Assembly (NCBI GenBank): GCA_937942475.1
Contig: CALDEP010000154.1
Location: 1-37,056 of the forward strand
DNA length: 37,056 nucleotides
Direction of reading: 5' to 3'
DNA from: an uncultured Aureispira sp.
GTDB taxonomy: Bacteria; Bacteroidota; Bacteroidia; Chitinophagales; Saprospiraceae
Positions 1,187 through 28,578 of this stretch are shown here, piece by piece. The translations under genes were made by a program, and so were the position numbers. A model generated the notes under the pieces. The model had not been told where the DNA came from. It made no database searches and saw only the letters and a list, made by a program, of their open reading frames with translations. How positions within the stretch are numbered: the stretch's first letter is position 1; each line of letters starts with the position of its first letter.

Positions 1187-1247
1187 AGAGATGATCAACC
1201 ATAAAATCCCCTCTGCTCCTAATTTCTATGAAAAAATCAGAATCTGC

Positions 1248-2039: not shown

Positions 2040-2168
2040 GGTAAAATTTTATATTTTAGAGTAAAAATTAGAGCATGGTCATCGGTTGATCTTTCTCCGT
2101 TCTCTTCACTCAAAACATAGAGATGAACTAGAGATTATCATGCATAGCTTTATAGAAGTTAAATTGGC

Positions 2169-2218
2169 TTTTTTGTAGAATTTATAGCAAAATATTCACC
2201 ATAAAATTCTACAAAAAA
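2169..2218. repeat. AT-rich inverted repeat between metG and its downstream gene
   Basis: TTTTTTGTAGAATTT at 2169-2183 is the exact complement of 2204-2218, with a 20-nt loop. The U-run lies in the arm rather than after it, so it is not a textbook intrinsic terminator for either strand. It sits just after the metG stop and could end or attenuate transcription into the exported-protein gene. Confidence 0.5.
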
Positions 2219-2276
2219 ACACCAAAACAGCTAAACCTTTATTAAAAGCAAGGCTTAAACCATAAAATTTTAATTT

Positions 2277-4484: not shown

Positions 4485-4500
4485 TGTTATTTTTTGCTTT

Positions 4501-4535
4501 ACCAAACTGTTAGAGGCTTTGTCTGACAGTTTGGT
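4501..4535 (-). promoter_or_regulatory. Stem-loop in the metG leader
   Basis: ACCAAACTGT (4501-4510) pairs with ACAGTTTGGT (4526-4535). The next four bases on each side extend the stem to about 14 bp with one G-U-type pair, leaving a 7-nt loop. It lies 16 nt upstream of the metG ATG, close enough to affect initiation. I do not recognise it as a known riboswitch or T-box. Confidence 0.55.
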
Positions 4536-4631
4536 CTTGATAGTTTCTGTTATCGTTAATTGTAATGGGTTCTAGCTTTTCTGAATTAGTAAATACATCC
4601 AAAAAGGCATTTCAGTTCCCATAGGAACAAA

Positions 4632-4666
4632 AATAAACACTAGCCTTAAAAAAGCTAGTGTTTATT
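4632..4666 (-). terminator. Intrinsic terminator of the glycosyltransferase operon
   Basis: A 13-bp perfect stem (AATAAACACTAGC at 4632-4644 against 4654-4666) with a 9-nt loop lies just past the stop of the GT2 gene. On the minus strand it is followed by a T-rich run (TTTTTGTTCC). Confidence 0.75.
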
Positions 4667-4712
4667 GTATTTTTTATATAAAAATCTTGTTTTCTGTCGC
4701 TAAGCGTCTAGA

Positions 4713-6203
4713 TTAGCTCATCATTCTAGCATGTGCAAAAGAATAACCACTAATAATAGAGTAGCCTAAAAATACTAAAATGTGGAAAGGCAACATGCCT
4801 ACAATACCGTAAGAAATAGACACCACAATCGTAGATAAGAAGATTAGAGCAATCAATAATTCTACTTTAGCCGTTAAACTAACCCCTTTAGAGATATATT
4901 TATTGGCTTCCCATCCTTTTGCTTTTTTATCTTCCAAGTTGAATTTTGGCGTACGTACAAAAGGTGTTTTCTTACCCATGTATCCCTCAATTGCAGCCAT
5001 TGCATTATGCAAACCCATTCCCATAGACAAGGCGATAAAGAAAGGAAAACGAATGATAAAAGAGAAGACGTTTTTAATAGAAAAACCACCTCTAGTATGT
5101 TCGTAAGACAGCCAAAAGAACAAGGATACCATAATCATATTCAAAGACCCCAAAGCAGCATATCCTAATATATCGTTATAAATAGAAGCATCTCCTTGGT
5201 GAATATATTGTACCCAAACCAATGGAATACTACTAAACGTAAGCATTAAGATACAGATAAAGATTCCTGTATTCATTAAGTGAGAAATTGCATGTAATTT
5301 ATCAACAAATCCCATGTTTTTTGCTTTCATAACTCTAGGCAAGTTCTTCACAGCACACTCAGCAGCTCCTTTTGTCCATCTAAACTGTTGGCTTTTAAAA
5401 GCATTCATAGCTACTGGCAATTCTGCTGGAGTAGTTACATCTCCTAAGTATTTAAACTCCCAGTCTTTTAGTTGAGCACGGTAGCTCAAATCTAAATCTT
5501 CTGTTAATGTATCTGACGACCAGCCACCTGCATCTTCAATACAAGCACGTCTCCAAAGACCTGCAGTACCATTAAAGTTCATAAAATGACCAGACATATT
5601 ACGTCCCATTTGCTCTACAATAAAATGACCATCTAAAGCCAAAGCTTGCATTTCTGTTAAGAACGAATAGCCCTTATTCATGTGTTCCCAACGCGTTTGA
5701 ACAACGCCAACTTTATCATTATTAAAATAAGGAATCGTGCGCTTCAAGAAGTCAGTATTTGGAATGAAATCTGCATCAAATACAGCTACAAACTCACCTT
5801 CTGAAATGGTTAAGCCATAAGCTAATGCCCCTGCTTTGTAACCAACACGCTCTGGACGGCGTACTTGCTTCATGTCCCATCCATAATGTTCTAGTGCTTT
5901 AATTTTATTTGCAATGATTTGCACCGTTTCATCTGTAGAATCATCCAATACTTGGATTTCTACTTTATCTTTTGGGTAATCCAACAAAACGATGGCATCC
6001 AAAAGACGTTCTACCACATAAAGTTCATTGTAAACAGGCAACTGTATTGTTACCGTAGGCACAAAATCGTCCGTCATTACTGCATTATTATTTTCTTTTC
6101 TGCGTCTCCACCAGAAGTTAAGTGCAAGGTGTAATTGCACGCAACTATAAAGAAAGATAAAAATTAGGGGTAACACGTATAACGTAATGATAAATATTTC
6201 CAC
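4713..6203 (-). CDS. Membrane GT2 glycosyltransferase, cellulose/mannan synthase-like
   Basis: A 496-residue processive-type family 2 glycosyltransferase. One transmembrane helix spans about residues 5-30, followed by the cytoplasmic GT domain. It carries the full catalytic set: DDSTD (87-91), DAD (143-145), TED (234-236) and QQFRW (272-276). The C-terminal half has about four hydrophobic segments that would form the membrane channel. The set resembles CesA/CslA beta-glycan synthases. There is no BcsB, BcsC or PilZ domain nearby, so the polymer is unknown. It starts with GTG, 2 nt after the stop of the upstream glycosyltransferase, so the two are almost certainly co-transcribed. Confidence 0.9.
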   Translation of the reverse strand: MEIFIITLYVLPLIFIFLYSCVQLHLALNFWWRRRKENNNAVMTDDFVPTVTIQLPVYNELYVVERLLDAIVLLDYPKDKVEIQVLDDSTDETVQIIANKIKALEHYGWDMKQVRRPERVGYKAGALAYGLTISEGEFVAVFDADFIPNTDFLKRTIPYFNNDKVGVVQTRWEHMNKGYSFLTEMQALALDGHFIVEQMGRNMSGHFMNFNGTAGLWRRACIEDAGGWSSDTLTEDLDLSYRAQLKDWEFKYLGDVTTPAELPVAMNAFKSQQFRWTKGAAECAVKNLPRVMKAKNMGFVDKLHAISHLMNTGIFICILMLTFSSIPLVWVQYIHQGDASIYNDILGYAALGSLNMIMVSLFFWLSYEHTRGGFSIKNVFSFIIRFPFFIALSMGMGLHNAMAAIEGYMGKKTPFVRTPKFNLEDKKAKGWEANKYISKGVSLTAKVELLIALIFLSTIVVSISYGIVGMLPFHILVFLGYSIISGYSFAHARMMS

Positions 6204-6205
6204 GC

Positions 6206-6892
6206 TTATTTATATTTGAATATTGTTGTAATAATTTTATAACCTGCCAAAATAGTTCCTTTAATAGTCCCTGAGATTTTAGATTTACCAACTCGTACTC
6301 TGTAAGAGACTGGAATTTCAATAGATTTAAGTCCTTGCTTTGCAGCTTTAACTTGCATTTCTACTGTCCATCCGTAGGTTTCATCACACATATTCAAGTC
6401 TATCAGTCTGTCATATTTTATCGCTCGAAAAGGGCCTAAGTCGGTATAAACAACCCCATAAAACCACTTAATGAGCTTTGTTGCTAGCCAATTGCCAAAA
6501 ACTTGTTGAGGAGTCATCGAACCACGTTCTTTATCTCCCAATGCTCTTGAACCAATCACTAGCTCTACATCGCTTTCCAAAATTGGTGCCACGATTTGTG
6601 GCAATTCTTCAGGATGATCTGAATAATCAGCATCCAAGAAGACAACAATATCTGGTTTGCATTCCATTTTTTTTAAATAATCAATCCCCTTCAAACAAGC
6701 AAAGCCATACCCTTGGCGTAGTTCATTTAAAACAGTTGCTCCTGCTGATTTTGCTACAATTCCTGTCTTATCATTCGAATTATTGTTCACAACAATAACC
6801 TCCTTGACAAGATTTGTAGGAATATCTTTTATAACACGTCCTACTGAATTTTCTTCATTATAAGCAGGAATGATTACAACTATGTTTGCCAT
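6206..6892 (-). CDS. GT2 glycosyltransferase, polyprenyl-phosphate sugar transferase-like
   Basis: A 228-residue GT-A protein without clear membrane helices. It has IPAYNEENSVG at the N-terminus, VNNNSND in the nucleotide-binding region, the metal-binding DAD near residue 88 (VFLDADYSDHPEE), DLGPFRAI and ETYGWTVEMQ. The pattern is that of dolichyl/undecaprenyl-phosphate mannosyl- or glucosyltransferase-like enzymes. It is the first gene of a two-gene operon with the membrane GT2. A plausible division of labour is lipid-linked sugar supply by this enzyme and polymerisation or transfer by the next, but that is inference. Confidence 0.88.
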   Translation of the reverse strand: MANIVVIIPAYNEENSVGRVIKDIPTNLVKEVIVVNNNSNDKTGIVAKSAGATVLNELRQGYGFACLKGIDYLKKMECKPDIVVFLDADYSDHPEELPQIVAPILESDVELVIGSRALGDKERGSMTPQQVFGNWLATKLIKWFYGVVYTDLGPFRAIKYDRLIDLNMCDETYGWTVEMQVKAAKQGLKSIEIPVSYRVRVGKSKISGTIKGTILAGYKIITTIFKYK

Positions 6893-7514
6893 TTGTGTAA
6901 TTTAATGTTCTTTCGGGGGCACTGTAAAAAGCGTTTTTTGTCATTCCAAAACTACTCTAACATACTGTCTAGAACTATGTTAGAGCATCTAAAACAAAAA
7001 CAAACACTCCTCATTATTTCTTAAAAGTGGTTTAAATCTGCCGCAAAAGTAGTATAAAAAAAACAGTTTGCAATAAAAAATTAATCTTTTCTATCTATTC
7101 TTCTAAATAATACTCCAACTTGATTTTTTTAACTTTGAAGTTTAATCTAAAAAATAGAATCTATAACGTTTTAGGTCTAAAGTTTTACTAAATAAAAAAA
7201 AATCAAAAAATTTCTAATTGACTAAGTATTGGAAAGTAAATAGTTTATTCCTAACTTCCAGTATCAAATTCAGTATACAAAACATTTCAAGCTCTCTTAA
7301 ATAGGTCTATCTAAATATTATTTTTTAACTTTGTAATAAGGCTTCATAGCTTTTCAAGCTCTTATGTTTTCTTTATTCATACTTATATCCGTCAGAGAAA
7401 TCAGTTACCCTACAATCCATTGATAAAATATAAAATAATTTGATCGGACAAGATGAATCATGAATGCTACTGACCCCAACAATCTTTTTTTAAATAAAAA
7501 TAAACCATTATATT
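6893..7514. other. Divergent intergenic region
   Basis: About 620 nt of very AT-rich DNA between divergent genes. It holds the strong minus-strand promoter at 7044-7073 and, for the plus strand, two TAACTTTG boxes (7130-7137 and 7326-7333), neither with a TTG at the expected distance. No ORF or palindrome is convincing here. Confidence 0.6.
7044..7073 (-). promoter_or_regulatory. Bacteroidota-type promoter of the glycosyltransferase operon
   Basis: On the minus strand the sequence reads TTG (7073-7071), exactly 19 nt, then TACTTTTG (7051-7044). This is a full match to the Bacteroidota sigma consensus TTG-N19-TAnnTTTG. Transcription would start near 7038, giving a leader of about 145 nt before the ATG at 6892. 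Confidence 0.7.
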
Positions 7515-7934
7515 ATGAGTGCATTACTTCTTCCCTTAATAGCAATTGTTGCAGGAATGCTTGCCGCAGCTTCTGTTGTCATTAAAAAATCTCCAGATGC
7601 TGCCAATTTAATTAAAAAAATCAAACCTTACGAAGCTGGTATTGGCGCTGCGGCACTTGTTCTTGGAATTTTAAGGTTGTTTATAGTTACAGTAGCCTTC
7701 AAAATTGGTTTAATATGGGGACTTGTTTTTTCAGCTTGTGTTGCTTCTTGTATTGTTATGGGTTTCTTATTAGGTTATCCTGTTTTACAAAACTTATTAT
7801 TAGATGAGTTAAGTGAAGATGCTCAAGCCAAAAGTGAAGAAATGTATGAACGCCTTACGCCTTACAAAGTAACCTCTGGTTTAGTTGCTATGGGAACTGG
7901 TGTCTATTTACTGGTTATAGGGTTTATATTTTAA
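7515..7934 (+). CDS. Small integral membrane protein, unknown
   Basis: A 139-residue protein I do not recognise. Hydrophobic segments lie at about residues 3-22, 43-62, 66-92 and 115-138, so four membrane helices are likely. A charged loop (DELSEDAQAKSEEMYERL) lies between the third and fourth. Small residues (Gly, Ala) are abundant in the helices. The DinB-like gene follows after 22 nt, so the two are probably co-transcribed. Confidence 0.7.
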   Translation: MSALLLPLIAIVAGMLAAASVVIKKSPDAANLIKKIKPYEAGIGAAALVLGILRLFIVTVAFKIGLIWGLVFSACVASCIVMGFLLGYPVLQNLLLDELSEDAQAKSEEMYERLTPYKVTSGLVAMGTGVYLLVIGFIF

Positions 7935-7956
7935 TAAAGAATAGTTTAAGAATTTT

Positions 7957-8595
7957 ATGCCAAAAACTGTACAAACAAAGGAGCTATTAGCTGACTTAAA
8001 TCGACTGAATAAACGTTTGTCCGAAATTATTGCTAGAGATTTTCCAAATTTGAGCTCAGATCAATTAAACTGGCGGGCACAAGAAGATGAGTGGAGTATT
8101 GCAGAATGCTTAATGCATTTGAATTATGTTGCGGATTATTACTTTCCTTCAACACTCAATGCCATTAAAAATGCAAAAGCAAAAAAGAGCAAGCCTCAAG
8201 AAAAATTCACTAGAGGATGGTTAGGTCATCGTTATGCCAGTAAGTTTCGCCTGAATTTGGAGAATCAGATAAAAGGTAGAATCGAATCGCCTTCTAAATA
8301 TAATCCGAGAAGCATGTCTTCGAGTATATTGGATGGCAAAAAAATCATAGCAGATTTCTTAGAAAAACAGCAGGTAATTGACAAAATGCTGCAAGATGCT
8401 CAGACGATTAATCTACAGAAAACACGTGTTCATGCTGCATTTTGGGGATTGGTTAGTATTCAATTGGGCGACATGTTAAAGGTATTGGTCTACCATACAG
8501 AACGGCACAGTGTCCAAGCTCAACGAATTTTGTACCACGATTATTTTCCAGGTAACTTGCCTTTAAAAGATTTGCTGTCTAAAAAAGAAGCATAA
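7957..8595 (+). CDS. DinB-like four-helix protein
   Basis: A 212-residue soluble protein of the DinB/YfiT-like superfamily. The N-terminal segment DEWSIAECLMHLNYVADYY supplies H54. The C-terminal YHTERHSVQAQRI supplies H180 and H184. Together these make the three-histidine metal site typical of the fold. Members include thiol-dependent transferases and many of unknown function. The middle (residues 75-150) is longer and more basic than in minimal family members. Substrate unknown. Confidence 0.8.
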   Translation: MPKTVQTKELLADLNRLNKRLSEIIARDFPNLSSDQLNWRAQEDEWSIAECLMHLNYVADYYFPSTLNAIKNAKAKKSKPQEKFTRGWLGHRYASKFRLNLENQIKGRIESPSKYNPRSMSSSILDGKKIIADFLEKQQVIDKMLQDAQTINLQKTRVHAAFWGLVSIQLGDMLKVLVYHTERHSVQAQRILYHDYFPGNLPLKDLLSKKEA

Positions 8596-8614
8596 AATAT
8601 CAAGAAAAAACTTA

Positions 8615-8644
8615 TTGCAAGTTGAATTTTATTAGTTACTTTCG
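8615..8644 (+). promoter_or_regulatory. Probable promoter upstream of bioB
   Basis: TTG at 8615-8617, then exactly 19 nt, then TACTTTCG at 8637-8644, one mismatch to TAnnTTTG. The predicted start is near 8651, giving a long leader of about 200 nt that contains the boxA-like element at 8659-8683. Confidence 0.5.
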
Positions 8645-8658
8645 CTTTAGAAAACAAG

Positions 8659-8683
8659 TAAGGTTCTTTGAGAAATTGTTTGG
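8659..8683 (+). promoter_or_regulatory. boxA-like leader element, copy 1 (bioB)
   Basis: The core GGTTCTTTGAGAAATTG resembles the boxA-type sequence (GTTCTTTGA...) of Bacteroidota rRNA leaders. It begins about 10 nt after the predicted transcription start. A 25-nt relative with two mismatches lies at 17639-17663, in the direction of paaC. A complementary CCAAAGAAC at about 8708 could pair with the core. Confidence 0.45.
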
Positions 8684-8849
8684 CGTACTTAAAATATTAC
8701 CACTAACTTGCCAAAGAACAAAATATAATAAGAAATAGATAAGATCGAATATTTGCTTTATAAACGGTCTTAGTTAACGGATTTGAATGCTAAATAGAAG
8801 CACCGACAAATAATTCAAATCTTCAAACCTTCAAATTAAAATAAGTACT

Positions 8850-9839
8850 ATGAGTTTACGCAATGATTGGACAAGAGAAGAAATCGAAGCCATTTACAAC
8901 AAGCCACTTTTAGAGCTAATCTATGAAGCAGCTACAATTCATCGTAAAAACAATGATCCTAGTGAAGTACAGGTATCCACTCTTTTGTCTATCAAAACAG
9001 GGGGTTGTCCTGAGAACTGTTCTTACTGTCCTCAATCGATTCATCATAATACCGGTTTAGAGCCAGAACGCTTACTGACTTTGGATGAAGTAATGACTAA
9101 AGCAAGTATTGCTAGCCAAAATGGTTCTACTCGATTCTGTATGGGGGCTGCTTGGAGAAACGTAAAAGATAACAAACAATTTGATCGTGTTATTGATATG
9201 GTCAAAGGGGTAAATACCTTGGGTATGGAAGTTTGTTGTACTTTAGGTATGTTGACAAAACAACAAGCCGAACGTTTAAAAGAGGCTGGATTACATGCTT
9301 ACAATCACAACCTAGATACCTCGGAAGGACATTATGCTGAAATTATTACTACTAGAACCTACAAAGATCGTTTAGACACTTTGGAGCACGTTAGAGAAAC
9401 AGGCTTAAATGTTTGTAGTGGTGGTATTATTGGCTTGGGAGAAACGGCAGAAGATCGAATTATCATGTTGCACACCTTGGCTAATTTGCCAAAACATCCT
9501 GAGTCGGTTCCTGTAAATGCTTTGGTAGCCGTAAAAGGAACGCCTTTAGAAAATCAAGAACGTGTTTCTGTTTGGGACATGGTTCGCATGATTGCTACCG
9601 CTAGAATCATTATGCCAAAATCACAAGTGCGTCTTTCTGCTGGTCGTCAAGAAATGCCGATTACAGAACAAGCTTTATGTTTCATGGCTGGCGCTAGTTC
9701 TATCTTTGCTGGAGAGAAGTTATTAACGACTCCAAATCCAGATGTTAATCAAGATAAGATGATGTTTGAATTGTTGGGAATCAGACCTATGGCTGCATTC
9801 AAAGGTCAAGAAAAGGAATTGGAAGCAACAGAATTCTAA
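8850..9839 (+). CDS. bioB: Biotin synthase
   Basis: Radical-SAM enzyme that inserts sulfur into dethiobiotin, the last step of biotin synthesis. The radical-SAM CxxxCxxC cluster is C53, C57 and C60 ([10 protein letters not shown]). Other family marks are YNHNLDTS near residue 152, GLGET and SAGRQEM. The 329-residue length is normal for the family. No other bio genes lie in the window. It has its own promoter with a long leader and ends at a strong terminator. Confidence 0.97.
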
Positions 9840-9864
9840 TCAAAACGTATAAAAGAATATTTTC

Positions 9865-9899
9865 AAAGCACTACTTCAAAAAGGTAGTGCTTTTTTTAT
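9865..9899. terminator. Terminator after bioB (bidirectional)
   Basis: AAAGCACTAC (9865-9874) pairs with GTAGTGCTTT (9884-9893), with a 9-nt loop, and is followed by a T-run on the plus strand. It lies between the convergent bioB and the membrane-protein operon and may serve both. Confidence 0.85.
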
Positions 9900-9904
9900 T
9901 TCAC

Positions 9905-10309
9905 TTAGCCAAAGAAACCTCCATATATAATATAAGAAAGCGTGCCAAACAACCAGATAAACAACAAGGCTGTTGCTCGCCACAAACGACTATTATCCTC
10001 AAATAAGTGTTCTAAACGATTTGTGATAAGTTCAGGGTCATACCATTTTATGACTCTTGTATACTTAAATGCTGTATTGCTCCAATAAAACACAAGCCCC
10101 ACTAGTCCCATAAGCAGAACTCCTAACAAAAATACGCCTTCATTTTTATCTTCTAATGCAGACATAGCTACAAAAAAAAGACCAGCTCCTGCAATAAAAC
10201 CAAAAGCGGCTAATATACTCAACCAAATCTCCACTTTTCCAAGCTCTTTTAATAAGCTATTTCTATATTCTACATCAAGATTCTTATCGTCTAATAAATT
10301 AGGATCCAT
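9905..10309 (-). CDS. Small membrane protein, unknown
   Basis: A 134-residue protein, not recognised. A charged N-terminus of about 27 residues (MDPNLLDDKNLDVEYRN) is followed by hydrophobic helices at about 29-50, 60-78 and 110-130. A soluble stretch (KWYDPELITNRLEHLFEDNSR) lies between the second and third. It is the last of three genes on this strand, with a 2-nt gap to the preceding one. Confidence 0.65.
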   Translation of the reverse strand: MDPNLLDDKNLDVEYRNSLLKELGKVEIWLSILAAFGFIAGAGLFFVAMSALEDKNEGVFLLGVLLMGLVGLVFYWSNTAFKYTRVIKWYDPELITNRLEHLFEDNSRLWRATALLFIWLFGTLSYIIYGGFFG

Positions 10310-10311
10310 TT

Positions 10312-10698
10312 TTAGTTATAAGTGTTTATTAAGGCTGGAATTATCATAGCAATAAAAGCTAATAAAATAAGCATAAAGACTATTGGTCCCACCCTCCAAA
10401 AATGACGTTGTTTCTGAAATGCCAATTCTAAATCTAATTGCTCTTTTTCTTTTTGATAGGCTATTAAAAAACTTAAACTTTTTAATAGTAAATAGGCTAC
10501 ATAAGTACCTAATAAGCAAAAGGCTATATAAAATAGATGTTGCTCCTGAACCTCATCAAAGTAGCCAATCTCTAAGCTGAGATTTATCTCATATATTGTA
10601 AAACCCCAAGAGCTTAACAAAAATAGGGTAAAAATGAAGACTGTTAGCCGTTGCCAAAAGATAATTTTAGCTATGGCGCTTTCTTGTGTCGGTTCCAT
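10312..10698 (-). CDS. Small membrane protein, unknown
   Basis: A 128-residue protein, not recognised. It has hydrophobic helices at about residues 15-35, 52-78 and 102-124, and a charged linker rich in Lys/Glu/Gln (YQKEKEQLDLELAFQKQRH) before the last helix. It stands 26 nt after the coiled-coil gene and 2 nt before the next small membrane gene, so the three probably form an operon and perhaps one membrane complex. Confidence 0.65.
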   Translation of the reverse strand: MEPTQESAIAKIIFWQRLTVFIFTLFLLSSWGFTIYEINLSLEIGYFDEVQEQHLFYIAFCLLGTYVAYLLLKSLSFLIAYQKEKEQLDLELAFQKQRHFWRVGPIVFMLILLAFIAMIIPALINTYN

Positions 10699-10724
10699 GA
10701 AAAAGTGTTGGGTAAACCTTTATT

Positions 10725-11345
10725 TTAATCCAAATCCTTTTTTGAAAAACCAAGCTCTTTCAGATAAGCTTTCATTTCTTTCTTAAAACTAAATGTAGGA
10801 TGTTTACGAATCATATCGAAGGCAAAATCAAAATCTTTGTAACTGTATTGAATCGGTGCACTTGTCCCTAGCGTTGTCATCACTACAGGCGCATTGGTGG
10901 CTGCTAATACTTTTCTACTCGTGTCCAAAAAAGGAAAAATATAATTACGGACAAATTCTTGATATTTGGGTGGGTGCAATTCATAATATTGGTCCGCCAA
11001 ACGAGCATAACGATGCATGGTCTCTCTATATTCCATGACAAATACATTGCTCAATTCGTTTCGTCTAGAGGTAAGCATATTGACATCTTTGGCTTTTAGC
11101 TGTGCTTCCATATCTTTAAGAATAAGGCGCAAGCGTTCTTTTTTGAGTTTGTACTCATCTTCCAAGGAAAATAATTTATCGTTTTGTTGCAATTGAATTT
11201 GCTGGATTTGCGCTTGCAATTTAGCAATTGCTTCCATTTGTTGCCCTCGAACATACAACCAAGTGACCAAGACCACCACCACAAATACTAAAATATTAAC
11301 CACATAAAAAATCCAATCGGCTTGAATTGCTTCTATAAATGTCAT
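10725..11345 (-). CDS. Membrane-anchored coiled-coil protein, unknown
   Basis: A 206-residue protein. One membrane helix lies at about residues 11-32 (FYVVNILVFVVVVLVTWLYV). A coiled coil rich in Gln, Lys and Leu covers about 36-88, then a helical soluble domain runs to the end. The C-terminal segment (IRKHPTFSFKKEMKAYLKEL) is basic. It is the first gene of a three-gene membrane-protein cluster. No family assigned. Confidence 0.65.
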   Translation of the reverse strand: MTFIEAIQADWIFYVVNILVFVVVVLVTWLYVRGQQMEAIAKLQAQIQQIQLQQNDKLFSLEDEYKLKKERLRLILKDMEAQLKAKDVNMLTSRRNELSNVFVMEYRETMHRYARLADQYYELHPPKYQEFVRNYIFPFLDTSRKVLAATNAPVVMTTLGTSAPIQYSYKDFDFAFDMIRKHPTFSFKKEMKAYLKELGFSKKDLD

Positions 11346-11498
11346 TCTTAAAAGTTCTGGGTTATTAAATGCTTCGACTACTTTTCCTCTAGTTATTGAA
11401 CATTATTACGAATAAAAGGTAACAAAAGTTTATGATTCCAACAAGTAGTCCTGTATAAAAAGAACCGTCTTTATCAAAAAATAATTCCTTCTACAGAC

Positions 11499-11984
11499 TT
11501 ACTTTTTTCCACAACACTTTTTAAATTTCTTTCCACTCCCACAATAGCAAGGATCGTTTCGTCCTATTTTCACCGTTTTGGTCGCCGAAATTTTAGCTTC
11601 CGTTCCTTCTACAAAGTACCATTTTCCGTCCTCTTTTTTAAATAGAGAGTTTTCTGCATGCACTTTTAAGCTATTATTATACTTATAATGCGCTTTAAAA
11701 ACCACACGTCCTATCTGATCTTTTTCCAAGCCTTTTTCAGCACTAATGATTTCTAAGCGTTCCCAAACGGCTTCTTTTGCCCAACTTTCGATTGTTTTGC
11801 GATCGCTTTTTGCCCTATTGTCTGGATGTACGGTATTGATAATATAATCAATTTCCGCTTTAACATGCGCTGTATATCTAGAGCGCATCAAAGCTACCGC
11901 TGTTGGCGCTGCTGCCTTCCCCTCTAAATATGGAGCGCAACAATCTAGATATTCTTTTTGGCTATTACAAGGACATTTTTCCAT
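11499..11984 (-). CDS. YchJ-family SEC-C motif protein
   Basis: A 161-residue protein of the UPF0225/YchJ type. An N-terminal zinc motif ([13 protein letters not shown], from residue 4) leads into the NTF2-like middle domain, with RSRYTAHV and the WERLEI and VVFKAHY strands. The C-terminus is a second SEC-C motif ([20 protein letters not shown]), the same metal-binding element found at the SecA tail. Function of the family is not established. It follows the VF530-type gene by 5 nt and is probably co-transcribed with it. Confidence 0.88.
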
Positions 11985-11989
11985 TCTTA

Positions 11990-12208
11990 TTATTTTTCAA
12001 TGGTTTGAATATACAATTCTTCTACTTTTTTTCTTGCCCAAGGCGTTTTCCTCAAAAACTTCAAACTAGATTTTATACTAGGATCATAATTAAAACAACG
12101 AATGTCAATTTTATGCCCAAGATGTTCCCAGCCATAAGCTTCTACCAAATGTTCTAAAATGCTTAATAATGTTTTTCCATGTAATGGATTATTAGGTTGC
12201 TTTTCCAT
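11990..12208 (-). CDS. VF530-type small DNA-binding protein
   Basis: A 72-residue protein matching the VF530/DUF2132 family throughout: [50 protein letters not shown]. Family members are small helical proteins described as DNA-binding on structural grounds. The frame continues to a TTG at 12223, but the ATG at 12208 gives the family's normal N-terminus. First gene of a pair with the YchJ-like gene. Confidence 0.88.
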
Positions 12209-12494
12209 AATTTTATAAACCAATTTACTTTTTTTATTCTAAAATCCAAGTAATTAAATTCTTTACATCAACAATTGGCTCCTCCTACTCTTGTTTATTT
12301 TAGTGCTGATTGAAGGCGTATTTGTCACTTAACAAGAGAAGTGAAAGTTTAAAAGTACAGCTTTTCAGATTATGTTAGTATATTTAGGAACTGTAATTTT
12401 AAAATAAGAACCTAGGTTTAAACAAATGCCATTTTTGAGTGCAGGTATTTTGTTGTTACTAGGCTTCTAAGACCTTTAGCCGATTTACCCAATT

Positions 12495-15182
12495 ATGATG
12501 GAGACAAAAACAAAAGAACATGCGCTGCAATTAGAAGCCGTCTTTTTTTCAACCTTAGATTCTTTGCGTGGTGTTTGGGATGCCAACAATGCCAGCAGCG
12601 TTTTGCTTTCGTTAGTTTTTTTCAAACGAATGCTTGCCCTTCAGGAAGAGCAAGCCTTTGACTTTATCGAAACGCAGCCTAAAGATTACCTTTGGGCTAG
12701 TGAGTTTAGAAGTAAGGTAGTCGAGGATGCCGACTTAGCCATGCGAGCACTAATCGGAACATTAACGCAGTTTTCTAAGCGAAACAAACCGCTAAAAAAT
12801 ATTTTCGCTCCTTTGGGTTTGGCTTTGCAGGAAGAAAGTAATTTACAGTTATTGATTCAAGTCATTTTGGTTTTAGAAGATTTAGATTTTTCAACCAAGG
12901 CGATTTCTATCCTTGAATTTGGGACCTTTTTTAATGATAGTTTGTATCGAACTGCTTTGCGGGCGAGCAGTACGGGCATCAAAAGAACAACTCCTAAAAC
13001 GATTAATGAACTCCTAGTCAAACTGGTCCATCCCAAAGCCAATGAATCTGTTTATGACCCAACAGTAGGGCAAGGTTCTAGTTTGATTGCTTTTTTGAAT
13101 GAAGAACCTAATTTACATATCTTTGCACAAGAGCAAAACATTCATATTTGGGCACTTTGCAAAATGAATTTGTGGGCAAATGGCGCTTACAAAGCTCAAA
13201 TTAGCAACGGAAATACGCTTGTAGAAGATTTGCAAGAACAACTGAAAGTAGATATTGCCATTACCCATTTTCCTTTTGGGCAATACATTTCCACCGAAAA
13301 AATTAAAGAACAATCCTATACGTCTATTCCCTTTGATGTCAGTACGCCACACATTCCTTGTAATAGTTTATTTATTCAACTAGTACTTTCCAAGCTCAAT
13401 GCCAAGGGGCGTTTAGCGACCATCATTCCTATTCAAATGCTTGTGGAGGACAAGGAAGATCGCAAATTAAGAGAGTTTCTCATTCGTCGAGACCTTTTAG
13501 AAGCGGTCATTACCCTCCCCTATGGTTTGTTGCATTCTACGGGAATTCCGATTTGTATTTTGGTTATTAATAAAAATAAAAGTTACCAAAGAAAAGAACA
13601 AATTTTGTTTATCAATGGAGCTAATTTGAATGTCAAAACGCAGTCTAAATTAAGTCGAGAATTAACTTCTGAGCACGTGGAGTATATTAGTGCTGTTTTT
13701 CATCAATTGGACACCGAGTCTACGCCAGAATTAGAAGCCTGTGTTTCTAACATTCCTTTGCATCAAGTCATTTTAAATGATTATAATTTAGATGCCAAAC
13801 GATACGCCTCGCCTTTTATCGCTCAATTAAAATTGTTGGAGGATTATGGGCAATTAATTCGACTGAAAGAGATCTTTAAATCTGAACGCCCAGCGCTTTG
13901 GTTTGATGAAACACCTTATCAAGACATTCCTTACATTCGCCCTCAAAACTTAGGCAAGTCCATTACCAATTATTTGATTGATGTGACTCAAATCCCGAAT
14001 ACGAATGAAGTTCAACAAGTTGCAGGGCAGTTAATTAACGAGTCTATTCTCTTGGTCAATCGTTCTGGTCGAAGCCTCAGAACCAGCTATTTTGTTTTTC
14101 AAGGAATGTCCATTTTAGTCAATGAAGACATCATGACCTTTAGGGTAGACGAAGATAAAATTTTGATTGAATACCTCCTATTTCAATTGCACGATAGTCT
14201 ATTTATACAGCAACTCAATATGTATAAAATGGATTATCAACACAATACAATTACAGAAGAACATTTTGAAGGGCTTCAAATCAATCTACCTTCTCTAGAA
14301 GAACAAGCGACGGTTATTAAAGAAACCAAAATTCGCTTATTACAAGAAGAGGAAAAAAAGGTAGAACAATTGCGTAATGACCTTAATTTGGGCAAGCAAA
14401 AAGCGCAAAATGAACAGTACAAAATCATCTCTTCCTTACAACACGAATTAGGGAATCGTTTACCTGCTGTTTTAACAGAAATTAAAAATCTAAAATATCA
14501 TTTAAAAGATAAAGAAGAAGATCAAACGCCTATTAATTTTTCGGAGCCAATGTTCCCTATTTTTGAAGGAGAAGATGCTGATTCTATTGATAATTTAGGA
14601 ACACTAATAGAGCGCATTGAATCTATTTTGGTCCACTCCATTAATAGCTTGGATTCAACGGGAGATATTATTAAGGCAGATCGTAGCAAATTGAATCTAG
14701 AACGCATTAAAATCAAAGGGTTTTTAGAAGAAATTCAGCAATTTTATACGCAAGAAACTAGTTTTAGAATTCAAATTGAAGTAGAGGAAGATGCCAAAGG
14801 GCGAGAAATTCCAATTTATACACTCATTGATAAAACGCAACTAACGACCGTTATTACCAACCTGATTGATAATGCCAAACGGCATGGGTTTGTACAAAAA
14901 AACAAGCAATATACCATTCAGTTTAGAGTAGGATTATCTTCTGACCAACAGGAGGTTATTATTATTTATAAAAATGATGGAGAAAAATTCCCTGATAATT
15001 TTTCTTTTGAAGATTTTATCGGTTATGGTAATTATGCAGGTCAAACAGGACATTCTGGAATTGGTGGCTATTTAATCCATCAAATCATTGACAACCACAA
15101 TGGAAACATCAATTATCGAAAACTAACAGATCGTCGTGACCCCTTCAAAGTTCAATTTGAAATTGCCTTACCCATTTTGTAA
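12495..15182 (+). CDS. Fusion: N6-DNA-methylase-like, HsdS-like and histidine-kinase-like domains
   Basis: An 895-residue protein in four parts. Residues 1-165 resemble the HsdM N-terminal helical region (WDANNASSVLLSLVFFKRM). Residues 166-400 are an N6-methylase fold with SAM motif I DPTVGQGSS (188-196), but the catalytic NPPF position reads HFPF (258-261). Its end, AVITLPYGLLHSTGIPICIL, is typical of HsdM. Residues 450-610 look like one HsdS target-recognition unit, ending LPSLEEQATVI. After a coiled coil comes a kinase-like unit: candidate H-box SLQHELGNRLP (H650), N-box TNLIDNAKRHG (788-798), an atypical G1 (NDGEKFP) and a G2-like GHSGIGGYL (852-860). No HsdR or response regulator lies nearby. 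It probably heads an operon with the next two genes. Role unknown: DNA- or epigenome-sensing signalling or defence are possibilities. Confidence 0.85.
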   Translation: MMETKTKEHALQLEAVFFSTLDSLRGVWDANNASSVLLSLVFFKRMLALQEEQAFDFIETQPKDYLWASEFRSKVVEDADLAMRALIGTLTQFSKRNKPLKNIFAPLGLALQEESNLQLLIQVILVLEDLDFSTKAISILEFGTFFNDSLYRTALRASSTGIKRTTPKTINELLVKLVHPKANESVYDPTVGQGSSLIAFLNEEPNLHIFAQEQNIHIWALCKMNLWANGAYKAQISNGNTLVEDLQEQLKVDIAITHFPFGQYISTEKIKEQSYTSIPFDVSTPHIPCNSLFIQLVLSKLNAKGRLATIIPIQMLVEDKEDRKLREFLIRRDLLEAVITLPYGLLHSTGIPICILVINKNKSYQRKEQILFINGANLNVKTQSKLSRELTSEHVEYISAVFHQLDTESTPELEACVSNIPLHQVILNDYNLDAKRYASPFIAQLKLLEDYGQLIRLKEIFKSERPALWFDETPYQDIPYIRPQNLGKSITNYLIDVTQIPNTNEVQQVAGQLINESILLVNRSGRSLRTSYFVFQGMSILVNEDIMTFRVDEDKILIEYLLFQLHDSLFIQQLNMYKMDYQHNTITEEHFEGLQINLPSLEEQATVIKETKIRLLQEEEKKVEQLRNDLNLGKQKAQNEQYKIISSLQHELGNRLPAVLTEIKNLKYHLKDKEEDQTPINFSEPMFPIFEGEDADSIDNLGTLIERIESILVHSINSLDSTGDIIKADRSKLNLERIKIKGFLEEIQQFYTQETSFRIQIEVEEDAKGREIPIYTLIDKTQLTTVITNLIDNAKRHGFVQKNKQYTIQFRVGLSSDQQEVIIIYKNDGEKFPDNFSFEDFIGYGNYAGQTGHSGIGGYLIHQIIDNHNGNINYRKLTDRRDPFKVQFEIALPIL

Positions 15183-15201
15183 AATCGTAATTTAAACTCG
15201 T

Positions 15202-15381
15202 ATGCAAAACCTAAAAACAGCCTTAATATTACTCGGTTTTTTAGTCTATTTTCTGTATTCTTGCAGTAGTAATCGCGATACAGCTATACAGTCGGGTAGT
15301 TTGGTCATGGAATTGCATCCTTGGTATGGTTCTGCAGCTCTAGTTGAGGTTAATACAATTCATAATAAAATAAAGAAATAG
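15202..15381 (+). CDS. Small lipoprotein, 59 residues
   Basis: A short ORF from the ATG at 15202 to TAG at 15379-15381. It has a hydrophobic signal segment (TALILLGFLVYFLYSC) and a lipobox-like LYSC with Cys21 as the likely lipidated residue, followed by SSNRDT. The mature part is only about 39 residues. It begins 19 nt after the fusion protein's stop and ends 4 nt before the ROK kinase start, which supports a real gene in an operon. No family recognised. The reading-frame fit and lipobox are seen; export and lipidation are inferred. Confidence 0.65.
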   Translation: MQNLKTALILLGFLVYFLYSCSSNRDTAIQSGSLVMELHPWYGSAALVEVNTIHNKIKK

Positions 15382-15385
15382 TAAA

Positions 15386-16336
15386 TTGAAAGTATCTGTA
15401 GGAATTGATATAGGAGGAACAAATACCGTTTGGGGCTTGATCAATGAACAAGGGCAAGTCCAAGTAGAGGGTAGTATTAACACAAGGGAATACTCAAAAC
15501 CTAGTGATTTTGTTGCCAAACTAGCTTTAGATATAAAAAATGCCTTACTGGATTCTACATTTGAATTGGTGGGTATTGGGGTTGGTGCTCCTAATGGAAA
15601 CTATTTCAAGGGCACCATAGAATATGCACCCAACTTAGTTTGGGAGGGAATTATTCCCTTACAAAAAATGTTTCAAGCGCATTTTAATTTACCGATTTGG
15701 GTGACCAACGATGCCAATGCTGCTGCTATTGGAGAAATGTTGTTTGGTGTCGCTAAAGGAATGAAAGACTTTATTGTCGTTACTTTGGGCACAGGATTGG
15801 GCAGTGGTTTTGTCGTGAATGGAGAAGTAATTTATGGGCACGATGGTTTTGCAGGGGAATTGGGACACACCATTGTCGAACGCAATGGAAGAACTTGCGG
15901 TTGTTCTAGAAAAGGTTGCCTAGAAACCTATGCTTCTGCAACAGGCATTGTTCGTACAGCAAAGGAGCGATTGGAAAATTATCAAGGTAAAAGTTTGCTT
16001 CAGGAACAAGCAAAAATTAGTTCAAAAATCATTGCCGACTGTGCCAATCAAGGAGATGCCTTAGCTTTGGAAATATTTGATTACACAGGCGAACAATTAG
16101 GCTTTAGCTTAGCCAATACGGTTGCTATTTCTAGCCCAGAAGCCATTATTTTGTTTGGAGGTTTAGCCAATGCTGGTGCATTAATTGTTGATCCAACTCA
16201 GCATTATATGGAGCATTATATGCTCAATCTTTTCCAAAACAAAGTAAAATTACTCATCTCTACCGTACCACAACATCAAGCTGCTATATTGGGCGCAGGT
16301 GCTTTGGCTTGGAAAAATGTCAATGGCGCTTTATAG
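15386..16336 (+). CDS. ROK-family sugar kinase (glucokinase-like)
   Basis: A 316-residue ROK kinase, probably phosphorylating glucose or a related hexose. It shows the phosphate motif DIGGTN (8-13), the catalytic aspartate in NDAN (D109), the second phosphate motif TLGTGLGSG (133-141) and the ROK zinc site H161, C171, C173, C178 (ELGH and CGCSRKGC). The start must be the TTG at 15386: an in-frame stop lies at 15371 and no ATG or GTG falls between. It follows the 59-residue lipoprotein by 4 nt. ROK proteins with a DNA-binding N-terminus are regulators, but this one lacks an HTH, so it is an enzyme. Confidence 0.92.
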   Translation: MKVSVGIDIGGTNTVWGLINEQGQVQVEGSINTREYSKPSDFVAKLALDIKNALLDSTFELVGIGVGAPNGNYFKGTIEYAPNLVWEGIIPLQKMFQAHFNLPIWVTNDANAAAIGEMLFGVAKGMKDFIVVTLGTGLGSGFVVNGEVIYGHDGFAGELGHTIVERNGRTCGCSRKGCLETYASATGIVRTAKERLENYQGKSLLQEQAKISSKIIADCANQGDALALEIFDYTGEQLGFSLANTVAISSPEAIILFGGLANAGALIVDPTQHYMEHYMLNLFQNKVKLLISTVPQHQAAILGAGALAWKNVNGAL

Positions 16337-16689
16337 CATTATCATCTAAAGAAAAAGCGATTTAAAAATTTGAGGTTTTTTTATATCTATGGGATAACAG
16401 TTGTAACAAGGAAAATATAGAATCTGTTTAGCATTCTTTAGATTTTAGATCGCTGCGCTTGTAGATCCTAGATACTAGACCCTATTAAGCTGTAATAGAG
16501 TCTAGTATCTAAGAGTGAAACGATCTAAAATCTAAAAGCGAAGCGATCTGGACATAACTTTTAGATAAATTGATGCTCCATATGATTAACCAGCTACTTT
16601 TTGTCCTGTACATAGAGTTTTATGACAAAAAACCATTTTCAAATTTTCAAATCGCTCTATTTTTAACTTCTTTCAATAAACAGAACCGT
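16337..16689. other. Convergent intergenic region with a long hairpin
   Basis: Lies between the convergent ROK kinase and paaC. Apart from the 100-nt hairpin at 16437-16536 I see no gene. A weaker pair, TTTTTGTC near 16599 and GACAAAAA near 16624, precedes the paaC stop. Confidence 0.6.
16437..16536. repeat. Long imperfect hairpin built of TAGAT/ATCTA units
   Basis: Three nested perfect stems: 16437-16452 with 16521-16536 (16 bp, TTTAGATTTTAGATCG), 16469-16480 with 16500-16511 (12 bp, TAGATACTAGAC), and 16482-16487 with 16493-16498 (6 bp). The arms are internally iterative (TAGAT repeated). A trailing GCGAAGCGATC copies part of the left arm. It may terminate both convergent genes or be a dispersed element. 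Confidence 0.7.
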
Positions 16690-17448
16690 TTACCACTCCA
16701 TCCCAGGATAAGCCCGTTGCATCCACTGAATTTCAGCCAAAACAAAGCCCATTTGCTCTGTGTGTTTGCCTTGCTTCCCTCCTTTTTGAATCCAACCATC
16801 TTCTGGTTTATCTAAGGTTGCTTCTTTTAAAATTGCTGTTACACGTTCTTCCCACAATGCTTTGATTGCATTCAAATCTACGCCAATTCCTTCTGCAAGC
16901 ATTTGCTTATCAACTTCATCTGCTACGAACATTTCACCAGCATAATCCCAAATTTCATTCAAAGCACTTTGCATTTTTTCATGACTCTCCTCCGTTCCAT
17001 CTCCCAAACGAATCACCCATTCTGCACTGTATCGATAATGATAAGTTACCTCTTTAATTGACTTTTTGGCAATCGCAACCAAGTTTTCATCTTTGCTATT
17101 GGTCAATGCTGCAAAGAAATGATAGTTAAACGTATCAAATAAAAACTGACGTGCTATCGTATTTGCGAAGTTACCATTTGGCTGTTCGACCAATAGTACG
17201 TTTTTAAATTCACGAATGTCACGCAAAAACGCCAAATCATCATCTGTTCTTCCTTTGCCTTCTACATCGGCAGCATATTGCAACAAGACGCGCGCATGCC
17301 CTACCAAATCAAGTGCAATATTTGTCAATCCTATATCTGTTTCCAAACTTGGTCCATGACCACACAACTCAGAAACGCGATGTCCCAAAATCAATGCATT
17401 ATCAGCAATGCGCAAGACATAATCAAATAAAACTTCTTTATTTTCCAC
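16690..17448 (-). CDS. paaC: Phenylacetyl-CoA epoxidase subunit PaaC
   Basis: The structural, ferritin-like subunit that pairs with PaaA in the 1,2-phenylacetyl-CoA epoxidase. The 252-residue length and the landmarks YVLRIADNALILGHRVSELCGHGP, DIALTNIALDL-type helix, FNYHFF and the C-terminal EIQWMQRAYPG are characteristic. It begins with GTG at 17448. It is the last gene of the paa group and is separated from paaB by 254 nt that hold a palindromic element and a boxA-like sequence. paaD, which often follows paaC, is not present; the next gene is convergent. Confidence 0.95.
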   Translation of the reverse strand: MENKEVLFDYVLRIADNALILGHRVSELCGHGPSLETDIGLTNIALDLVGHARVLLQYAADVEGKGRTDDDLAFLRDIREFKNVLLVEQPNGNFANTIARQFLFDTFNYHFFAALTNSKDENLVAIAKKSIKEVTYHYRYSAEWVIRLGDGTEESHEKMQSALNEIWDYAGEMFVADEVDKQMLAEGIGVDLNAIKALWEERVTAILKEATLDKPEDGWIQKGGKQGKHTEQMGFVLAEIQWMQRAYPGMEW

Positions 17449-17510
17449 AAGCTATCAATTGTCGTTCTCTAACAAATAATGTGATACTATTTTAACAAAT
17501 TCCTTATTAG

Positions 17511-17605
17511 ACTATATGAGTCATAAGTTTTAAGTAGAAAGTCGTAAGTCGTTTATTATCAAAAGAGAACTTACGACTTTCTACTTAAAACTTATATCCT
17601 AATTC
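17511..17605. repeat. Dispersed palindrome, family B, copy 1 (inside the paa cluster)
   Basis: A 27-bp perfect inverted repeat at 17523-17549 and 17569-17595 (core TTTTAAGTAGAAAGTCGTAA) with a 19-nt loop containing TTTATTATCAAAA. The left flank ACTATATGAGTC is repeated, inverted, on the right flank of copy 2 at 31663-31760. It sits between paaB and paaC, so it would be within the transcript if these genes are co-transcribed. Confidence 0.85.
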
Positions 17606-17638
17606 AAGACTCGAAAAAGTAATCTATATTTTGAAATT

Positions 17639-17663
17639 CCACACAGTTTCTCAAAGAACCTTA
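17639..17663 (-). promoter_or_regulatory. boxA-like element, copy 2 (upstream of paaC)
   Basis: Read on the minus strand, it has the core GGTTCTTTGAGAAACTG and matches 8659-8683 at 23 of 25 positions. It lies about 190 nt upstream of the paaC start and points the same way as the gene. No clear promoter was found just upstream. Confidence 0.4.
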
Positions 17664-17702
17664 ATTCTTAATCATTTTTAATATCTAAACCTTTCACCCA
17701 AT

Positions 17703-17990
17703 TTACATATGTCCAATCTCATCAGGAATATCGTAAAAAGTAGGATGACGGTAAGGCTTTGTTTTAGCAGCATCAAACAACATATCGCCATCATCTGGAA
17801 CAGATGCTGTAATGTTCTTCGATTCTACCACCCAAATACTAATGCCTTCCTGTCTACGAGTGTAAACGTCCCGTGCATTTTCCATTGCCATTTCTTCGTC
17901 AGTAGCATGTAAACTTCCAGCATGTTTGTGATGCAAACCTGCTTTACTTCGGATAAATACCTCCCATAGAGGCCAGTCTTTCTTAGACAT
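17703..17990 (-). CDS. paaB: Phenylacetyl-CoA epoxidase subunit PaaB
   Basis: A 95-residue small subunit of the phenylacetyl-CoA epoxidase complex. Family marks are WPLWEVFIRSKAGLHHKHAG at the N-terminus, HATDEEMAMENARDVYTRR and ISIWVVES. PaaB bridges the PaaAC units rather than carrying catalytic residues. The length is typical. It lies 60 nt downstream of paaA on the same strand. Confidence 0.96.
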   Translation of the reverse strand: MSKKDWPLWEVFIRSKAGLHHKHAGSLHATDEEMAMENARDVYTRRQEGISIWVVESKNITASVPDDGDMLFDAAKTKPYRHPTFYDIPDEIGHM

Positions 17991-18050
17991 ATCTGTTTAT
18001 TTTAGATGAGGTTATAATAATAATTAACCCTACATTATATTTTTCTACAA

Positions 18051-18998
18051 CTAATTGTTTTTCTTTCTTTCAGCACGTTTTTCAGCATGTGCCATTGCCG
18101 CTTCACGAACCCAAGCACCTTCGTTGTAAGCTTTGTTTCTTACTTTCAAACGATCCTTATTACAAGGTCCACCGCCTTTTACCACTTGCCAGAATTCATC
18201 CCAGTCAATTGCACCATAGTCATAATGACCACGCTCCTCGTTCCATTTCAAATCTTTGTCTGGAAGTGTTAATCCCAAAAATTCTGCTTGAGGAACCGTT
18301 GCATCTACAAAAGATTGGCGTAACTCATCGTTTGATTTGCGCTTGATTTTCCAAGCCATAGATTGAGCAGAATGCGTTGATTCAGCATCACTTGGTCCAA
18401 ACATCATCAAAGACGGCCACCACCAGCGATTCAAAGCATCTTGTGCCATTTCCTTTTGTTCAGGCGATCCTTGTGCCAATGCCATTGTTATTTCATAACC
18501 CTGACGTTGGTGAAAACTCTCTTCCTTACAAATACGAACCATTGCACGAGCATAAGGTCCATAAGAAGCACGAGTTAACATCACTTGATTCATAATAGCG
18601 GCACCATCTACCAACCAACCAACAGCTCCAATGTCTGCCCAAGTTAGAGTTGGATAATTAAAGATACTGGAATATTTTGCCTTGCCAGAATTCAAATCTT
18701 CAAACATTTGATCTCTAGACGTTCCCAACGTTTCTGCGGCACTGTACAAGTACAAACCGTGTCCACCTTCATCTTGAACCTTTGCCAACAAGCCAATTTT
18801 TCGACGCAAAGAAGGCGCTCTAGTAATCCAGTTTCCCTCTGGCAACATACCTACAATCTCAGAATGCGCATGTTGCGAAATTTGTCGCACCAAGGTTTTG
18901 CGATACTTGTCTGGCATCCAATCCTTCGGTTCTATCTTAATTTCAGCATCTAGTTTTGCTTGAAATTTTGCCTCTAAATTTTCAATCGTATTTTCCAT
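18051..18998 (-). CDS. paaA: Phenylacetyl-CoA epoxidase catalytic subunit PaaA
   Basis: Di-iron ferritin-like monooxygenase subunit that epoxidises the ring of phenylacetyl-CoA. Both EXXH metal motifs are seen: EGGH (77-80) and ESFH (159-162). Other family segments are [28 protein letters not shown] and MFGPSDAES. The 315-residue length is normal. It is 225 nt downstream of paaE; a small palindrome (TCCAAA, 5 nt, TTTGGA at 19106-19122) lies in that gap, where a separate promoter might sit. Confidence 0.97.
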
Positions 18999-28211: not shown

Positions 28212-28578
28212 ACTTTTTTTAATTAAAACACTAAATATAGGTTGTCTAAAATTCAATATTATCAGAAGGAAATTACTTTATAAATTCAATTACTTTCTAA
28301 TAATTTATCATTCTAACCTAAAATAATGCTTTTGTTCGTTTAAAATTAGGTTTAAATTTATAAGAAGACAAAAATAGTTCATTTTTTGATAAAAATCAAG
28401 CATGTCTAAAGTATTAACAATAAAAGTAAACTGATTTTTCAGTAAAAAAAATACATTTCAAAAAATATTGATTATCAATAAATTACATAGAAAGTAAATT
28501 GCACTAAGTTTTACAAACACAAATCATCCGAAGTAGATGTTTTAACAAAAAAAAATTGACCCGCATTTTAGCAAAGAA
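28212..28578. other. Leader region upstream of the SprB-repeat gene
   Basis: About 370 nt of very AT-rich DNA. It carries the promoter candidate at 28369-28399; nothing else is evident. It also includes the 3' flank of the arylsulfotransferase-like gene, without a clear terminator hairpin. Confidence 0.5.
28369..28399 (-). promoter_or_regulatory. Candidate promoter of the SprB-repeat gene
   Basis: Minus strand: TTG (28399-28397), 20 nt, TATTTTTG (28376-28369), a full -7 consensus with spacing one longer than usual. It predicts a leader of about 150 nt. Confidence 0.45.

Follow-up and report, generated by a model that had tools for sequence, protein, structure and literature searches.

What does a protein do that carries the core of a DNA methylase, a target-recognition domain and the ATPase domain of a histidine kinase on one chain? 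The question is raised by a contig of an uncultured Aureispira sp. (family Saprospiraceae; assembly GCA_937942475.1, contig CALDEP010000154.1), whose 37,056 nucleotides are referred to here as the window, and in which one open reading frame (ORF) on the forward strand (12495-15182, +) begins with an ATG and runs through 895 codons without interruption, while the single frame of the reverse strand that was translated across it is rich in stops. Known inputs of two-component systems are small molecules, ions, light and stress to the cell envelope; the reading that we consider rather probable for this fusion is that it is the sensor kinase of such a system, with a catalytically dead, DNA-reading methylase as its input. 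The sequence supports this three-part architecture, a catalytic motif that has been lost, a set of kinase boxes and a receiver partner; that DNA is the signal, how the helices are coupled, which way the response goes, what output the receiver has and a role in defence are what we infer from them.

Architecture of the fusion protein

Three Pfam matches, each exceeding its cut-off, divide the chain into an N6_Mtase-like domain (residues 163-440, 12981-13814, +; E 2.2e-49), a single HsdS-type target-recognition domain (residues 455-605, 13857-14309, +; Methylase_S, E 7.2e-8) and a HATPase_c domain (residues 779-878, 14829-15128, +; E 9e-9), and HsdM_N falls under its cut-off (E 0.026). From an LPSLEEQ stretch, which presumably resembles HsdS, a long predicted helix, taken from a low-confidence model, leads into the presumed dimerisation and phospho-acceptor region (residues 598-720, 14286-14654, +). 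This region holds H650 within HELGN (14442-14444, +), the candidate phospho-acceptor histidine, and alignments place behind it an N-box (NLIDNAKRH, residues 789-797, 14859-14885, +), a G1 box (NDG, residues 827-829, 14973-14981, +), which has the NxG form also found in the kinase 3a0r_A in a profile alignment, and a G2 box (GIGG, residues 855-858, 15057-15068, +). An earlier description made from the letters of the window (the sequence-only reading) had proposed one 895-codon frame with HsdM-like, HsdS-like and kinase-like parts, and both the frame and the Pfam matches uphold it; the SAM (S-adenosylmethionine) motif, N-box and G2-like box that it named were located at residues 188, 789-797 and 855-858.

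The methylase part

In type I methylases the consensus is NPP[FY] for the catalytic motif and DPxxGxG for SAM motif I. The fusion keeps the second (DPTVGQGS, residues 188-195, 13056-13079, +; DPxxGQGS in seven Aureispira rows) and has no intact form of the first, the degenerate motif IV reading HFPF (residues 258-261, 13266-13277, +). That HFPF stands in the catalytic NPPF position, as had been claimed, was confirmed by a HMMER alignment onto the NPPF of the solved HsdM-like chain 7vru_A. Of the eight copies in the genus seven read HFPF and one (L005) reads HFAF, with Pro260 changed to Ala, the catalytic Asn being His in all eight. The acidic residue E213 is retained in the Aureispira rows.

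The wider family was surveyed in 60 genomes, mostly of relatives, in 395 Bacteroidota genomes, and in plasmids, phage records and viral contigs, the coverage beyond Bacteroidota consisting of plasmids and phages; genes in the relatives' genomes are open-frame calls made in the present analysis. Outside Aureispira, too, motif I or motif IV is off consensus in every lineage, and most relatives show an eroded motif I. The pattern [NDS]PP[YFW] occurs in one of 16 lineages (L060, NPPW), where SAM motif I is gone; motif IV is NPPL in L024 and L055, and in the others of the 16 it reads HFPF, TPPF, DLPS, DLPI, SPPI, DPF, DLPL, DLTL, DLPL, TPPI, YPPI, VPLT and NPRL; in L113, which is additional to the 16, it is CPPF. 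The separate HsdM proteins encoded beside the relatives served as a control: NPPF or NPPY is kept in 8/8, and the motif I pattern was matched in 6/8. As for homologues with an intact NPPF and an HsdR partner, which the sequence-only reading had set against its own view, HsdR neighbours do exist, and in the loci that can be checked the intact NPPF or NPPY sits in the separate HsdM while the fusion deviates. It is in this light that a DNA methylase still at work, an unusual type I modification enzyme ending in an ATPase tail, has to be judged: HsdM is the best match of the N-terminal half, and both motif I and E213 are kept in Aureispira, but such an enzyme would have to act with the altered motif found in all Aureispira copies, including the one that has lost Pro260 as well, and within a family whose motifs are off consensus next to HsdM neighbours whose NPPF or NPPY is intact, which makes it very unlikely.

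The gene is present at full length in eight of nine Aureispira genomes (source genome counted; 58-100% identity), two loci in a scan of named genomes matching it at 88 and 91% identity. The ratio of nonsynonymous to synonymous substitution rates (dN/dS) was computed for six pairs, of which two are saturated, three have dS above 2.5 and one alone (G000/G001, the sole pair with usable dS) is informative; there the ratio is 0.058 for the whole gene and 0.016-0.085 per domain, with 0.065 for the recognition domain and 0.080 for the methylase domain, and the three further pairs with dS >2.5 gave 0.027-0.058. Since it is full length in eight of nine genomes the fusion is no assembly artefact, and these copies, taken with the constraint and the constancy of motif IV, argue against gene decay as well as against an accident of assembly. 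A sensor of SAM or of a SAM-like metabolite, rather than of DNA, that reports through the kinase would account for a motif I kept in Aureispira while catalysis looks lost; it is unlikely all the same, given that motif I has eroded in most relatives and that the constraint on the recognition domain, for which a pure SAM sensor would have no need, is about equal to that on the methylase domain.

The kinase part

The histidine of the H-box is present in 22/22 tabulated rows, and H650, N793, H797, N827, G829, G855 and G857 are invariant in a 16-row alignment, the members from outside the genus being 20-27% identical to the window protein. A profile built from the C-terminal part finds solved sensor kinases (3a0r_A at 2.8e-18, HK853 chains at 7e-16), and in the family profile the H650 column is aligned with the His of 'ISHELRTPL' in the HK853 chains. 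What marks a sensor kinase in sequence, namely an H-box histidine, N, G1 and G2 boxes and a cognate receiver (see below), is thus found for the fusion, and the absence of a kinase fold after residue 640, which would have told against the sequence-only reading, was not borne out by the HATPase_c and sensor-kinase profile matches.

The H-box itself is the weaker element. No HisKA model matched in the Pfam scan of the fusion protein, so that of the segments assigned earlier N6_Mtase, Methylase_S and HATPase_c were recovered by profile and HisKA was not. The Glu that follows the histidine varies, leaving the His alone conserved across the family, and the H-box stretch compared by itself with HK853 scores 9.4 bits (i-Evalue ~6.5); the significance of the kinase-profile match is therefore due to the ATPase part and not to this stretch. 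The H-box proposed at H650 accordingly stands as an invariant histidine that aligns with that of HK853, and not as a stretch that is recognised on its own. GHKL ATPases without phosphotransfer are common, and a structural ATPase clamp of the MutL or MORC kind, in which the GHKL part is no phosphotransfer kinase, would fit both the missing HisKA match and the weak stretch. We nonetheless regard a clamp as quite unlikely, for the histidine is kept in every row, a receiver gene lies next to the fusion in 13/13 fusion loci, and the partial NCBIfam matches, all under cut-off, include sensor kinases.

Structure models, built on three close sequences (window, L003 and L004), were poor, with a mean pLDDT of 33.4 for the whole fusion and 46.1 for residues 604-895. 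When the poor model of residues 604-895 was submitted to Foldseek, 152 matches at E <=0.001 were returned, the best 50 of which are histidine kinases, CheA assemblies and kinase-like photoreceptors or complexes (query TM-scores 0.22-0.29), a result that lends the kinase reading weak support.

The receiver partner

Outside Aureispira 13 loci were found through the fusion (L024, L055-L065, L113), and in all of them the next gene downstream encodes a receiver protein. The border between the two genes ranges from an 11-nt overlap to a 15-nt gap in 16 loci measured, and is a 4-nt overlap in L113. Side by side in most members, the two genes should be easy to express and to assay. The receiver proteins are ~290-450 aa long, and the acidic pair, the phospho-Asp, the T/S and the Lys of the receiver signature are present in 22/22 that were tabulated; it is because of these residues and of a profile match to CheY-like chains in the PDB (best 2.9e-5) that they are assigned as receivers. 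They may have been overlooked so far because they carry no Pfam name and the Myroides record annotates its receiver as hypothetical. A reverse search with the receiver profile returned 13 of the 395 Bacteroidota genomes, namely nine already known to hold a fusion and four new ones, and all four have a family kinase upstream: three are full fusions (L104-L106), and the fourth (L107) is a variant with no significant methylase match, the best stretch lying in the recognition region at E 0.25.

All nine Aureispira genomes contain one long receiver homologue (in G005 the match comes in two pieces within one frame), at a distance from the kinase of ~735 kb in G003 and G004 and of 17 kb in G006. For kinase and receiver alike, no member from outside the genus is closer than L062 (27% identity for the kinase, 37% for the receiver), and the trees of both proteins join Aureispira and L062 as sisters (support 0.989 for the kinase, 0.883 for the receiver). 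Over 17 lineages the distances of the two proteins are correlated (0.56), a value that was reached in 0/5000 permutations. From the sister placement and the correlated distances it follows that the unlinked receiver is, as far as sequence comparison can tell, the likely partner of the fusion kinase in Aureispira.

The output domain of the receiver matches no recognised DNA-binding domain. Its C-terminal domain retains an Arg, a Glu and a His, and this R-x3-E ... H pattern prompted a comparison with the HEPN-like family DUF4145, represented in part by sequence from L056, for which hhalign gave P 0.0062 and a probability of 6.1% (controls: five shuffled, P 0.15-0.96, and one DHp, 0.68), so that a similarity between the two may be taken as only a hint. 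In L058 the receiver domain is followed by SLFN_AlbA_2 (2438-3385), with a gene for an AAA_5 ATPase adjoining; the C-terminal half of this receiver is for that reason not homologous to the others, and the protein was retained in the alignments.

Relatives and their genomic company

The 13 fusions outside Aureispira and the four kinase loci added by the receiver profile make up the wider family. Among the 395 Bacteroidota genomes the fusion search, in which at most two candidates were scored per genome, found at least nine with a fusion, and the receiver search three more. Matches of any kind occur in 1311 plasmid records, three of which, all of one Myroides plasmid type, cover at least 80%, and in 36 phage records, with one of 79% cover among the six listed; scans of viral contigs yielded no relative. 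The fusion of L058 is truncated by the start of its contig, and those of L057 and L062 begin with a HARE-HTH domain, which is above cut-off in L062 only. A separate open frame of 1049 aa (G010:C95:18269-19573) aligns with the methylase and recognition parts of the window's fusion (residues 165-614) and has no kinase match.

The genes around 16 loci (L024, L055-L065, L104-L107) were assigned by similarity to seeds identified with Pfam, and comprise WYL regulators in eight loci, HsdM in eight, HsdS in seven, HsdR in six and GmrSD in three. At least one restriction gene of the HsdM, HsdS, HsdR or GmrSD kinds is found in 9/16 loci, and in 10/17 with L113 included; among these 17 non-Aureispira loci, one other has CRISPR genes and two have AAA_5 or an AAA_15/UvrD set, the AAA_15 ATPase and UvrD helicase lying near L105. 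A NACHT-domain gene (5446-8328) is situated directly upstream of the fusion in L057. The fullest arrangement is that of L113 (MT835483.1 7347-27326), an unverified human-gut scaffold deposited as phage, where WYL-, fusion-, receiver-, hsdM-, hsdS- and hsdR-like genes follow one another (7620-18488). L107 (G123:C124:6000-25900) belongs to a type III CRISPR locus (605-12188) with Cas10/Csm1, Csm4, RAMP, Cas6 and a sub-threshold Csx1-CARF match, and its family kinase, which has a different sensor part, is placed with its receiver between the RAMP gene and the Csx1-like gene; it is possible that type III CRISPR signalling has a two-component branch here.

The gene and its surroundings in Aureispira

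Within the window the fusion gene is separated by 203 bp from the next ORF on the same strand, and its upstream neighbour is divergent. The surroundings look like ordinary chromosome, with a biotin-synthase-like radical SAM protein, a YchJ-like SEC-C protein, a ROK-family protein, phenylacetate genes and a methionyl-tRNA synthetase. No other restriction or phage gene, and no HsdM, HsdS or HsdR partner gene, was met in the 19 of 30 window ORFs of at least 100 aa that were scanned, the other 11 being of less than 490 aa; a search of the whole genome for N6_Mtase gave no second match in the contig of the window. That HsdR is absent, as the sequence-only reading had stated, fits the window, while several relatives do adjoin HsdR, HsdM and HsdS. 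In G006 the fusion is the only strong N6_Mtase match, with one further match at 3.8e-4.

It may be, with a chance that we put somewhat below even, that in Aureispira the pair has been domesticated into a chromosomal regulator that does housekeeping and takes no part in defence, which would be compatible with the same mechanism. The scanned window ORFs without restriction or phage genes, the constrained gene kept in eight of nine genomes, and G006 with no other strong N6_Mtase match all favour such a regulator; the position of most relatives in immune loci speaks against it.

Small proteins with no Pfam match are encoded in the window at 10312-10698 and 10725-11345, and similar genes occur near the fusion in several Aureispira genomes. 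Farther away, an SprB-repeat protein with a Por secretion tail (25656-28256) adjoins an arylsulfotransferase-like protein with the same type of tail (28579-30210).

Comparison with known systems

Type I restriction-modification systems (HsdM/HsdS/HsdR) share with the fusion a homologous methylase core and one target-recognition domain, and the relatives often adjoin hsdM, hsdS and hsdR; unlike them, the fusion unites M and half of S in one chain, has lost the catalytic motif, carries an added kinase and shows no HsdR in the window. With sensor kinases of the HK853 type and their CheY-like regulators it has the His, N, G1 and G2 boxes, the receiver signature and the profile matches in common, whereas its input appears to be a methylase-derived DNA-recognition part, and no recognised DNA-binding domain forms the output part of its receiver. 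In MADS (methylation-associated defence, MAD2/MAD5) the methylase and specificity parts are separate models. The PADLOC model mad2 matches residues 10-404 of the fusion at 3e-28 and mad5 matches at 3e-8, MTase_I being the best at 5e-41; the curated cut-offs are missed, with 28.1 bits against the 720 of MAD2, and MAD5 is unlisted.

In operons of methyltransferase-associated NxD GTPases (McrBC), two-component genes are frequent according to the relevant section of PMC11090510, which defers these systems to a later paper. L058 likewise combines fusion, receiver and an AAA_5 gene (the last known by family only); that section names no methylase-kinase fusion, and its two-component remark is the nearest published statement found in the passages retrieved. 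Other GHKL kinases in immune loci resemble the family in that respect: in the passages available, CapK acts on a Ser of the STAS repressor (CapK/CapS, PMC13373217) and Schlafen-histidine kinase fusions occur in BREX loci (PMC12839542), and no methylase or specificity input is described there for either. Cam2 is a further immune use of a GHKL kinase or receiver, its input differing from that of the fusion, and a kinase with a regulator is reported to act on CRISPR expression (PMC8523701). In the parts retrieved of the open-licence PMC literature, searched for the architecture and for MADS, a methylase-specificity-kinase fusion is named nowhere, and none is named in the passages from PMC12839542, PMC10853773, PMC13373217, PMC11229360, PMC12255303 and PMC11090510.

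Proposed mechanism and significance

If the fusion is a sensor kinase with a dead methylase as input, its type I methylase core and one recognition domain would bind a particular DNA sequence without methylating it. Two chains would dimerise through the HsdS-type helix, which would be continuous with the dimerisation helix of the kinase; because the one helix is proposed to run into the other, autophosphorylation on H650 could change when DNA is bound or released, or with the methylation of the site that is bound. The phosphate would then move to Asp62 of the receiver encoded elsewhere in the genome (G000:C484:11438-12280). In relatives outside the genus, which mostly reside in restriction loci, the kinase-receiver pair would probably gauge the state of sites or of their modification for an immune response, and in those loci foreign DNA, or DNA lacking the modification, could be what it reports; the Aureispira pair would be a stand-alone, split and conserved system.

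Besides the missing HisKA match, the variable Glu, the weak H-box stretch and the poor models given above, several observations weigh against this account. NPP is retained in L024, L055 and L060. The Pfam cut-off for Response_reg was reached by 0/14 receivers scanned, with sub-cut-off matches in 2/7 of one scan and the family unlisted for six others and for L058. In Aureispira kinase and receiver are unlinked, and for this reason their pairing there rests on homology; in G007, where the receiver is present, neither the fusion gene nor its YchJ-like neighbour was detected. No recognised defence neighbour was seen in the window, L062, L063 and L064 have none either, and L065 has a WYL gene only. 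On balance, the sequence-only reading is upheld in part. Its architecture, the lost catalytic motif and the proposal that a methylase-derived input signals through the kinase have good support in the sequence, to which the receiver partner adds; which of DNA sequence, methylation or SAM would be sensed, and a role against phages, are conjecture.

We give a little less than an even chance to the broader view that these proteins form a class of DNA-reading phosphorelays, in which a dead type I methylase with its recognition domain is the sensor and reports the presence or modification of specific DNA sites. On this view type I restriction loci took the system up, a type III CRISPR locus did so with the sensor altered, and Aureispira later domesticated it as a core system whose two genes lie apart. 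If true, there would be a direct route from the discrimination of self and non-self DNA to a phosphorylation signal by way of a retired restriction enzyme, and it would become testable how restriction loci gauge a phage genome that enters the cell or the state of their own modification.

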